Shown here: one piece after another, positions 5,746 to 12,147 of the stretch
Layout: every line of letters begins with the position of its first letter
Position numbering within the stretch: the stretch's first letter is position 1
The notes under the pieces: model-generated
What the model saw: only the letters and a program-made list of their open reading frames with translations
Databases searched by the model: none
What the model was told of the DNA's origin: nothing
Source: Deltaproteobacteria bacterium
GTDB lineage: Bacteria; Desulfobacterota; Desulfarculia; Adiutricales; Adiutricaceae
Length of the DNA stretch: 35,745 nucleotides
Reading direction: 5' to 3'
Assembly (NCBI GenBank): GCA_031288415.1
Contig: JAITRL010000063.1
Location: forward strand, 1-35,745
Made by a program: the position numbers and the translations under genes

Positions 5746-7134
5746 TTACTTGCCCTTGTACTCGAAGACCAGAAGCGAGCCCGGGTTGGCGGGCTGCTGG
5801 GACGGGAGGCCGTTCTCGTCCAGGTGGTTTCCGGTCTTGTCGGTGATGACGTAGATGGACTTGCCGTCCGGGCTGATCAGGACCTGACGGTAGCGGTTGC
5901 GGGTGTGGAAGTACTTGACGATGTCGCCCTGGGCCTGCTTGCGGTCGGCGCTCAGGGGCACCCGGTAGAGGGCGCCGTTCTTAAGGCTGGAGATGACGAT
6001 CGAGTTCTGCCAGGCCTTGATCGGGCCGTCGGCCGGATAGTAGTCCAGGCTGGCTGGGGCGATGGTGGCCCAGCCCAGGTAGGCGAGCGCCCCGAACTTG
6101 GCATCCTGGAAATTATAGGCGCTGGGCATGGTGTAGAAGGTCCTGACGGGCTCCTTGTAGTCCTTGCGGTCCCACTTGGTTTCCTTCTCGGATGGTTGGT
6201 CGGGCGGCAGGTAGACCGAGCCGTCGATCTTGTCGCAGCCTTCGACCGCGGACCAGTTGATGTAGGCGTAAGCCTGATCGTCGGGGTAGCCGGCGATGAG
6301 CGGCCAGCCGTAGTTGCCGCCTGAGACGAGGATGTTGAGCTCGTCGTCGGTGGAGGGGCCCTGCTCGACCTCGAAGAGCTGGTCGTCGACGAACTTCAGG
6401 CCCTGGGGGTTGCGGTGCCCCGCGGTGAAGACGTGGCTCTTGACGCCGTTGAAGGCCGGGTTGTCGTCGGGGATGCTTCCGTCGGGGTTGAGGCGCAGCA
6501 CCTTGCCGACGTACGCCGACCAGTCCTTCGCGGCGACCTCGTCCGCCGTGGGGAGCCTCTGGGCCTCGTTGAGCTTGCAGCGGTTGGCCCCCTGGTTATG
6601 GCCCAGCTCGCCTTTGCTCAGGTAGAGCTTGCCGTCAGGGCCGAAGACAAGGCGGCCGCCCTGGTGATCTGTCCAGGCGGGGAGGCCGGAGAAGATCTCC
6701 TTGGGGTCGGACAGCTTCTTGGAGGCCTTGTCGTACTTGTAGGTCACGATTTTCTGGAGCTCCTTGTCGCCGTCCATGTAAGTGTAGGTAACGTAGAGGA
6801 GTCCGGAGGAGTCGAAGTCAGGGGCAAGGGCCAGGCCGAGCACCCCCTCGTGCTGAGGGCCGGTCTTCACGTCGGCTATCTCGACCAGCACGGCCTTGCT
6901 GCCTGTGGCGGGATCCACCTCGGTGATCTTCTTGCCTTCGCGCTCGGTGATCCAGAGCTTGCCTTCCGGCCCCCAGATCATGCCCCAGGGCGAGTCGAGG
7001 CCCTCGGCGACGACCTTGCCGGCAAACGGCTCGGCCACGGCGATCTCGTCACCGGGGGCCGCGAAGAGAGCGGGCGCGGCCAGGGCCGCCAAAACGAAAA
7101 ACAACGCGAAAACCATAAACCGATTCATTGACAT
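5746..7134 (-). CDS. gdhB: Soluble PQQ-dependent glucose/sugar dehydrogenase (GdhB-type beta-propeller), exported
   Basis: Signal peptide MSMNRFMVFALFFVLAALAAPALFA; AGGAGG RBS just upstream of 7134. Motifs resembling Acinetobacter s-GDH as I recall it: DHQGGRLVFGPDGKLYLSKGELGHNQ, YVGKVLRLNPDGSIPDDNPAFNGVKSHVFTAGHRNPQGL, EQGPSTDDELN, GGNYGWP, SSLKNGALYRV, TRNRYRQVLISPDGKSIYVITDKTGN, ANPGSLLVFEYKGK. The track ORF extends to 7236, but 7134 is the better start. Confidence 0.92.
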   Translation of the reverse strand: MSMNRFMVFALFFVLAALAAPALFAAPGDEIAVAEPFAGKVVAEGLDSPWGMIWGPEGKLWITEREGKKITEVDPATGSKAVLVEIADVKTGPQHEGVLGLALAPDFDSSGLLYVTYTYMDGDKELQKIVTYKYDKASKKLSDPKEIFSGLPAWTDHQGGRLVFGPDGKLYLSKGELGHNQGANRCKLNEAQRLPTADEVAAKDWSAYVGKVLRLNPDGSIPDDNPAFNGVKSHVFTAGHRNPQGLKFVDDQLFEVEQGPSTDDELNILVSGGNYGWPLIAGYPDDQAYAYINWSAVEGCDKIDGSVYLPPDQPSEKETKWDRKDYKEPVRTFYTMPSAYNFQDAKFGALAYLGWATIAPASLDYYPADGPIKAWQNSIVISSLKNGALYRVPLSADRKQAQGDIVKYFHTRNRYRQVLISPDGKSIYVITDKTGNHLDENGLPSQQPANPGSLLVFEYKGK

Positions 7135-10350: not shown

Positions 10351-10953
10351 CTAAGGGCGGAGGGGGCGCGGCGGCCGGGCGCCGGGGTCAGCGGAAGGTT
10401 TGGCGGGCTCGGTCTTTGGATCGTTGGGTTGATTCTTTTCCGCAGGCGGCTGACAAGGCAAAGCGCCGCTGTTTATCGGGGTCGTCTGCCTAATGCAAGG
10501 GTCAGCATCAGCAAATTTTATTTTGACTAGCAAGTTAGGGTCGAAGTTGATTTTTAAAATTTCAGGCAAATTTTCCGGAAAAGTCAGGTTTTCAGGTAGT
10601 TGTATGTTAGGCAAAGATTCCATAAAAGGCATAAATGAATTGTAAATATTAGAGTATAAATGATATAATAGTATATCATAATAAGTATGAGCAAGATAAT
10701 TACCGATATCACATAAAGGTTTCCATTTTATTTGTTTATTTAGATGTTGAATAACATTATCATCGATCCGCGAAAGCACTTGTATTGATCTTGAGTATTT
10801 TAAGATATTATAAACTAATGAATCAAAAATAAAGAATTCAATAACAGGGCGTTGTATAGAAACAATAGGAGTGATAAATGATAAATTATTATTTGAAGTA
10901 ATAATATCTAAAATACAATAATTAAATGTAGTATTTAAGCGAAAATCAGCCAT
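10351..10953 (-). CDS. hepT: HepT-like HEPN domain protein (DUF86-type toxin of an MNT/HEPN pair), with catalytic Arg position altered and an abnormal C-terminal extension
   Basis: DSLVYNILKYSRSIQVLSRIDDNVIQHLNKQIKWKPLCDIGNYLAHTYYDI aligns by eye with the HepT/DUF86 pattern (W[KR]xxxGxRNxLxHxY). Start codon overlaps the stop of the MNT gene. AT-rich composition until ~10510, then GC-rich tail. Confidence 0.75.
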   Translation of the reverse strand: MADFRLNTTFNYCILDIITSNNNLSFITPIVSIQRPVIEFFIFDSLVYNILKYSRSIQVLSRIDDNVIQHLNKQIKWKPLCDIGNYLAHTYYDILLYHLYSNIYNSFMPFMESLPNIQLPENLTFPENLPEILKINFDPNLLVKIKFADADPCIRQTTPINSGALPCQPPAEKNQPNDPKTEPAKPSADPGARPPRPLRP

Positions 10954-11278
10954 TTAGTTGGCCTAAAAATTGTTTGAAAGGGCGGGCATAACTGAAAATA
11001 TGTTTAGCGATCAATGGTCTTAATTCTAAATCTTCAAATAAATCTACTTTGATATCTAAAAGAACTTCTAAATCGTCATAAAAATGCACATAATCATTAT
11101 AATTAAAATAATTTTTTGATTTGAAGGTATATATAAGATCAAGATCACTATTTTCAGTGTCTTCGCCTCTGGCGACGGAACCGTGAATTTTGACGTCGGT
11201 AAACCCCAATTGCTCGTATTTATTGACAATCTCAAGGACCTTGTCCCTGTTTTCTTTCAGTTTTTCGGTGGGTGTCAT
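10946..11278 (-). CDS. mntA: Minimal nucleotidyltransferase, MntA-type antitoxin
   Basis: KIHGSVARGEDTENSDLDLIY matches the GSxxRGx(n)SDxDL nucleotidyltransferase motif. AAGGAGG RBS upstream of ATG at 11278. Adjacent and overlapping HepT-like gene. Confidence 0.9.
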   Translation of the reverse strand: MTPTEKLKENRDKVLEIVNKYEQLGFTDVKIHGSVARGEDTENSDLDLIYTFKSKNYFNYNDYVHFYDDLEVLLDIKVDLFEDLELRPLIAKHIFSYARPFKQFLGQLNG

Positions 11279-12009
11279 GATGTACCCTCCTTGAAATTAC
11301 TAATAGCAAATATCCGTCCAAATATCCACACAAAGAGCCAAGCGGAGATGAAGCACGGCAAGTGCCAATCTCTTATGGAATTTTTTTGTACTAAAAAACT
11401 AGAAGAATTAGTAAGAAGAGTTAAAAAATAAGAAATTGCAATTGTATTTGGAAAAATTATGATCGGCAAAAGTTAGCTGGTTTGCGGCGTCAGATGCACC
11501 GGCGGGCGCAAAGCACGCAAATTCAATCGCGGAAGCGCACCGATAAAACATGTCCGTGGCAGTTTCTGTCTGGTTGGAAAATATGCGCCGGAACTGTTTT
11601 CCTTAAAGAGGAAAAGGGCGAGGAAGAGAAAACGAGCGGCAACTGACTGCAGGCGTCAAGGGAACAGGCCTGCAGGCGAAAGCGGCCGGCGCGCCGGAGC
11701 GGCAGGTCCGGCGGAAGAGTCGGGGCCTGCCCTTGCCGGCGGCATGGCGGCGCCCGCCGGTCAGCCTATGGCGCGCGCGGGATTTCGGCGGGCAACCAGG
11801 CTGTCAGCGCGGAGCCTGCGGAGTCCCCGTGAGCCGGTCCGGCGGAAGGCTGCCTCTCTCCTTAAGACGGGGCCTGAAGCCTCGTCGCCGGCGGCCAGGG
11901 AGGCCATATCGCGCCATCCGGCAGGCGGCCGGCGCCAGGATTCCTGCAGGCGCAGGAAGCGCGGGGCCTGTCGGGAAAAATCCAGGGAGACGGCGGGAGG
12001 CCGCAACGG

Positions 12010-12071: not shown

Positions 12072-12147
12072 TGGTAGTCCCAAGGGGACTCGAACCCCTG
12101 TTTTCGCCGTGAGAGGGCGGTGTCCTAGACCGCTAGACGATGGGACC
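12072..12147 (-). tRNA. tRNA-Glu (anticodon CTC), CCA encoded
   Basis: Minus strand GGTCCCATCGTCTAGCGGTCTAGGACACCGCCCTCTCACGGCGAAAACAGGGGTTCGAGTCCCCTTGGGACTACCA folds as a cloverleaf: acceptor GGTCCCA/TGGGACT, T-arm AGGGG-TTCGAGT-CCCCT, anticodon loop CTCTCAC. Close to E. coli tRNA-Glu. One C-A mismatch at 27:43. Confidence 0.95.

Follow-up and report, generated by a model that had tools for sequence, protein, structure and literature searches.

The window analyzed here, a 35,745-nucleotide stretch from a Deltaproteobacteria bacterium, carries a pair of adjoining minus-strand genes encoding a HepT-like HEPN protein (10351..10953) and an MntA-like minimal nucleotidyltransferase (MNT; 10946..11278). 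The two ORFs are co-directional and overlap by 8 nt, both here and in a second intact copy of the pair, called C144. The HEPN ORF specifies 200 aa, which the ORF itself, hhalign, and an AF2 model divide into a helical core (residues ~1–130) and a C-terminal tail (131–200; 10354..10563, minus strand) with a Pro/Arg-rich end. The MNT, recognized from Pfam, NCBIfam, and its omega values, is a 110-aa short form that lacks the long C-terminal helix. It matches Pfam Polbeta (4e-10) and NTP_transf_2 (2.5e-9), and it matches NCBIfam MntA_antitoxin at 7.6e-9, under the equivalog cut-off. Direct reading of its catalytic motif (G33 S34 ... D45 L D47; 11138..11182, minus strand) gives an exact GSX10DXD that is invariant in three copies of the gene, confirming an earlier sequence-only reading that had called the MntA motif intact. 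The third Asp is D79, within ‘KVDLF’. The MNT also matches PADLOC PDC-S09, a candidate nucleotidyltransferase phage defense system, at 4.7e-22; the likeness consists of the MNT match only, and this candidate model is silent on HEPN function.

The pair lies in an AT-rich island (10450..11550) of ~26–40% GC, with surroundings of ~70% GC. Base composition is not uniform within it. Specifically, GC3 is 0.59 in the HEPN tail, like that of the host, versus 0.18 in the HEPN core, and the copies measured reveal a mosaic across the cassette: GC3 is 0.4–0.6 in the first 52 MNT codons (11123–11278) and in the HEPN tail (10354–10563), and 0.10–0.19 in the middle.

The defining feature of the HEPN protein is a missing Arg. 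The motif region WKPLCDIGNYLAHTYY, read directly from the minus-strand ORF at 10351–10953, includes the loop equivalent to Rx4HxY, W77–Y91 (WKPLCDIGNYLAHTY; 10681..10725, minus strand), which was delimited by direct reading, hhalign, and comparison with 69 HepT ORFs. The loop runs W77-KPLCDI-G84-N-Y-L-A-H89-T-Y91, with six residues between Trp77 and Gly84. The residues from Trp to Tyr, including Gly in place of Arg, are as the sequence-only reading had them, and its codons are exact: on the minus strand, GGT at 10702..10704 places Gly84 at the catalytic Arg position, and CAT at 10687..10689 encodes His89, the conserved His of Rx4H. Tyr91 (TAT; 10681..10683, minus strand) is the counterpart of the Tyr AMPylated by MntA in characterized pairs (PMC7641770). 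Both His89 and Tyr91 are invariant in all three copies in which the loop can be read. A second departure, unremarked in the sequence-only reading, lies in helix 2, where the canonical Glu of the ‘IGE’ segment is gone from all three readable copies and a basic/serine patch (S54/R55) is present instead. No invariant stretch of the HEPN copies is longer than this segment, KYSRSI (K52–I57; 10783..10800, minus strand).

Assignment of so divergent a protein to the HepT group relies on profile comparisons. The Pfam HepT-like score of the window HEPN is 13.9 bits, and the cut-off of 23.5 is not reached; PF05168 yields no Pfam match up to E 10. When a profile of the paralogs is aligned by hhalign to 30 canonical HepTs, residues 42–121 match with 95% probability and an E value of 3.8e-8, and the HEPN Trp, His, and Tyr fall onto the canonical W..R[ND]xxxHxY. 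With an HMM built from these 30 HepTs, bit scores are 25.4–30.8 for the three readable copies and no more than 9.3 for shuffled sequences (n=6,000). When the paralog profile is used to search 395 genomes from the phylum, it recovers HepT proteins, many adjoining MNT genes. By these comparisons, the window HEPN is a true yet remote HepT relative, and the earlier HepT-like/MntA assignment is borne out, with the HEPN under the Pfam cut-off. An AF2 model computed from a nine-row alignment containing viral and bacterial HepTs is a helix bundle with pLDDT 75, versus pLDDT 38 from the single HEPN sequence. Because the other alignment rows are HepTs, the better model is not independent evidence. The first PDB neighbor of the AF2 model in Foldseek is Shewanella oneidensis HepT 6m6u, for which an E value of 0.56 and a TM score of 0.45 lend weak support to a HepT fold, and a structure search of the Foldseek type against a viral library returned nothing meaningful for the HEPN model.

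How unusual is the absent Arg? Among 69 HepT ORFs gathered by profile, without selection on the motif, 63 cover the Arg/His/Tyr site, and all 63 possess all three residues; the window Gly stands at the very column that is Arg in each of them. The helix-2 ‘GE’ is nearly as constant in these canonical ORFs (Gly in 66/69, Glu in 65/69). Likewise, the proteins encoded next to the closest MNTs of the phylum have the Arg wherever the loop is readable. The HEPN profile detected no Arg-less family member beyond the home genome in the 395 phylum genomes or in 63 genomes of the class, and every HepT match outside the family that covers the site has the Arg. No Arg-less relative was found by tblastn in plasmids and phages, nor in viral contigs, and one scan of other genomes’ contigs with N-terminal peptides uncovered no such relative; a single Oscillospiraceae locus surfaced there, with Arg present. 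So far, then, the Arg-less family occurs in the home genome only, among the genomes searched. Arg-less HEPN proteins as such are already known. In the survey of Anantharaman et al., 83% of HEPN-M proteins (PF08780/PF01934) retain the motif (PMC3710099), so some members of that group lack the Arg. HEPN proteins without it that are encoded beside MNT genes have been described previously (PMC3710099; class II in PMC7641770).

The home genome harbors three further copies of the pair, which lay beyond the reach of the sequence-only reading. In C144, the MNT and HEPN genes are both intact, and the HEPN loop, WKDLCDIIDVLAHKYH, has Ile at the Arg position. In C132, the MNT is intact and the HEPN carries two frameshifts, one close to the beginning of the gene and another close to the end of the core; its loop, WSSLFKIGDILAHKYH, has Gly at the Arg position. 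In C308, the MNT has one stop and the HEPN is eroded. Thus, the column holds Gly, Ile, and Gly in the window, C144, and C132, and none of the three has Arg, so the Arg was lost ahead of duplication; four related copies, with no Arg in the readable three, indicate a heritable change tolerated by selection. The sequence-only reading had raised the prospect that Gly is conserved in a clade. Absence of the Arg is indeed shared by all three readable copies, but the residue replacing it varies. Nor has the catalytic Arg shifted to the residue just before the His, which is Ala in all copies, and no other Arg occupies the catalytic position. The aligned copies show that loss of the Arg from Rx4HxY and of the Glu from the helix-2 ‘IGE’ both preceded copying. 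The family departs from the Rx4HxY of class I HepT/MntA at the Arg alone, His and Tyr being present, and the HEPN protein presumably is no longer an Rx4H RNase. All of the evidence comes from one metagenome-quality assembly that is 82.6% complete.

Clues to the origin of the cassette come from its neighborhood. A tRNA-Glu (CTC) gene (12072..12147, minus strand) lies 0.8 kb upstream of the MNT. Upstream of the C132 cassette (L099, 3785–3856) is a degenerate tRNA-Glu, uncalled by ARAGORN, that is 85% identical and has matching flanks. Its presence at the same relative place marks C132 as a segment copied from the window locus, as opposed to a separate capture. In two congeners (L108/G001 and L109/G003), the empty-site comparison finds the tRNA-Glu and the neighboring zinc-ribbon gene in synteny with no MNT/HEPN island. 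The family is present in none of the five congeners and is absent from the rest of the 63 class genomes. Given the island-free synteny, the cassette probably arrived beside the tRNA-Glu gene in the home lineage.

Selection has treated the two genes differently. Between copies, omega of the MNT is 0.14–0.21, and canonical MNTs, by the same measurement, give 0.04–0.25. For the HEPN, omega between copies is 0.26–0.41, with CIs below 1, versus 0.04–0.14 for canonical HEPN, apart from one pair at 0.26 with low dS. The HEPN tail (131–200) is constrained between the window and C144 (omega 0.45, CI 0.20–0.84). Identities tell a parallel story: in those canonical pairs that have MNTs 75–90% identical, the HEPNs are 85–96% identical, whereas in the Arg-less copies the order is reversed, with MNTs 74–81% and HEPN cores 52–63% identical. 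That the HEPN is less conserved than the MNT, the opposite of canonical pairs, indicates that it has been selectively released. Released does not mean free. In neutral simulations of the window/C144 core, omega of 0.41 or lower arose in 0–1.7% of runs under an AT-rich equilibrium and in up to 10% under the least favorable setting tried (kappa 6, 50% AT); the frame stayed open in 0–3% of runs and, in a separate run, in 3/2,000. Together, the omega values and the simulations argue that the window/C144 HEPN has lost much constraint yet is not free to drift. HEPN selection is relaxed, not neutral, and MNT selection is normal.

Several characterized systems resemble the window pair. Class I HepT/MntA type VII systems (PF01934 + PF01909; S. 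oneidensis SO_3166/SO_3165) share the MNT-then-HEPN order, the overlap, GSX10DXD, the W...H-x-Y loop, and remote yet significant sequence homology; the window family differs in having no Rx4HxY Arg, no helix-2 ‘GE’, a 70-residue C-terminal tail, a short MNT, a HEPN under the Pfam HepT cut-off, and four copies in a single genome. Class II HEPN/MNT pairs (PF05168 + PF01909) share an intact MNT motif, a conserved HEPN Tyr, and the lack of RX4H (PMC7641770), but the closest profile of the window HEPN is PF01934 and not PF05168, its His is kept, and its nearest profile relatives are class I HepTs. Legionella pneumophila lpg2920/lpg2921 likewise has a short MNT (~108 aa) without a long helix 4 and an 8-bp overlap, and Rx4H is not needed for catalysis there (PMC11586414); unlike the window protein, the Legionella HEPN keeps RX4HXY and has Q44/E47 Mg2+ ligands. 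The window segment YNILKYSRS contains no acidic residue, as aligned to canonical HepTs, the Legionella sequence itself being outside the alignment. Finally, the Parep1/8 HEPN-T proteins, compared by description only, share the loss of the Arg, a retained His, and other conserved basic residues (PMC3710099), but they are archaeal and belong to a different HEPN clade.

We lean, by a little over even confidence, toward a type VII-derived pair in which the HEPN has ceased to be an Rx4H RNase and persists as a non-nuclease partner of MntA or as an AMP acceptor. The notion is that a HepT/MntA-derived pair entered the lineage as AT-rich foreign DNA beside the tRNA-Glu gene and, after loss of the Arg and the helix-2 Glu, would have been copied around the genome. 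In two of the four copies, both genes then kept their reading frames, as the comparison of copies shows, with selection relaxed but real for the HEPN and ordinary for the MNT. The MNT, catalytically intact by motif, may still bind the HEPN and adenylylate Tyr91, and the HEPN could serve as a docking and acceptor partner and not as a cell-killing RNase. The output of such modification might be a HEPN that acts as a substrate-binding subunit keeping the MNT on target, or the pair might buffer another HepT/MntA system, for example, the canonical pair C64. Precedents exist for the individual elements. Tyr104 of RX4HXY takes AMP from MntA (PMC7641770), and where HEPN and MNT domains are fused, the HEPN typically has no catalytic residues and is viewed as a substrate-binding partner (PMC3710099). 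Neither R98A nor H103A has more than a negligible effect on the L. pneumophila HEPN, whose active site is the Q44/E47 Mg2+ site (PMC11586414); loss of the Arg alone, therefore, need not kill activity. Moreover, the HEPN is dead in two of the four copies, so its function may be dispensable. In line with the alternative raised by the sequence-only reading, the HEPN may act through something other than Rx4H RNase activity.

That reading had also proposed a toxin either disarmed or decaying. A disarmed RNase is well supported: the R97G mutation abolishes toxicity of S. oneidensis HepT (PMC4621449), and the window family has parted with the helix-2 Glu in addition. For the window copy, plain decay is not supported, because loss of the Arg predates duplication and the HEPNs of the window and C144 remain open with omega of about 0.4; decay does fit C132 and C308. 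A broader version of this idea, which we consider unlikely although worth serious attention, holds that the founder already had a disarmed toxin, that mainly the MNT is left, whether through anti-addiction or by chance, and that the HEPN is on its way out, with C132 and C308 as later stages. The damage in these two copies speaks for it, as do a HEPN evolving under roughly threefold weaker constraint than its canonical counterparts and a HEPN dN (~0.3) near the raw divergence of flanking non-coding DNA. Against it, the window and C144 cores have stayed open across ~30% nucleotide divergence, with indels in-frame only and omega ~0.4; neutrality is rejected under nearly all simulation settings; and His89, Tyr91, and KYSRSI have not changed in the readable copies.

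It is improbable, in our estimation, that the HEPN is still a toxic RNase in which the role of the Arg has passed to another basic residue, such as one of the helix-2 residues Arg55 and Lys52, which would face the dimer cleft, working with His89. KYSRSI does put basic residues where canonical HepTs have the Glu, and both the Parep1/8 HEPN, in which the R is missing but the H persists along with further conserved basic residues (PMC3710099), and the Legionella HEPN, which uses a different site (PMC11586414), provide precedents. Nonetheless, in the alignment to canonical HepTs, the Asn49/Lys52 region shows no acidic counterpart to the Legionella-type metal ligands, a toxin should display canonical-level constraint and the HEPN omega is several-fold higher, and no structure is precise enough to set Arg55 close to His89. 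We regard as a long shot the related proposal of a re-engineered HEPN, in which the Rx4H/Glu site would have been dismantled in favor of a basic helix-2 patch (Lys52-Tyr-Ser-Arg55) that, together with His89 and Tyr91, would form a new nucleotide- or RNA-handling site under MntA AMPylation, making the protein either an effector without RNase activity or a dominant-negative partner restraining the canonical HepT in the same cell. A sequencing or assembly error at 10702–10704 has a negligible chance of explaining the Gly. The assembly is a single draft, but paralogs on separate contigs are also Arg-less, with an Ile codon in C144 and a Gly codon in C132, which excludes a miscalled base.

HEPN/MNT pairs are mostly read as toxin plus antitoxin on the basis of Rx4HxY. 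The window family is a natural Arg-to-Gly counterpart of the Shewanella mutagenesis, with the pair retained and sister copies at several stages of loss. The family thus offers a compact natural test of the MntA/HEPN role after RNase loss, be it that of a protein-modifying partner, a decoy, or a leftover.

Additional features accompany the copies. Immediately upstream of the C308 copy (L101, 1126–1147) is an IS end (CGATTTYCCCGACAGTCTCCT), part of an IS with a transposase; this end occurs also in C57, C222, and C367, and degraded look-alikes precede the remaining copies. A 26-mer was considered as a flanking repeat of the cassettes and ruled out, as it is the IS element end and is intact only near C308. 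The C64 pair (L001, 1444–2161, minus strand) is a separate canonical MntA/HepT with RNIAVHGY and an intact MNT, situated in another AT-rich stretch of the home genome. Its HepT has a similar Pro/Arg ending, for which shared sequence with the window tail was ruled out, the two not being DNA-related. Finally, the C144 contig (L100) contains, at about 6300–6600, a 300-base stretch of only 11% GC.
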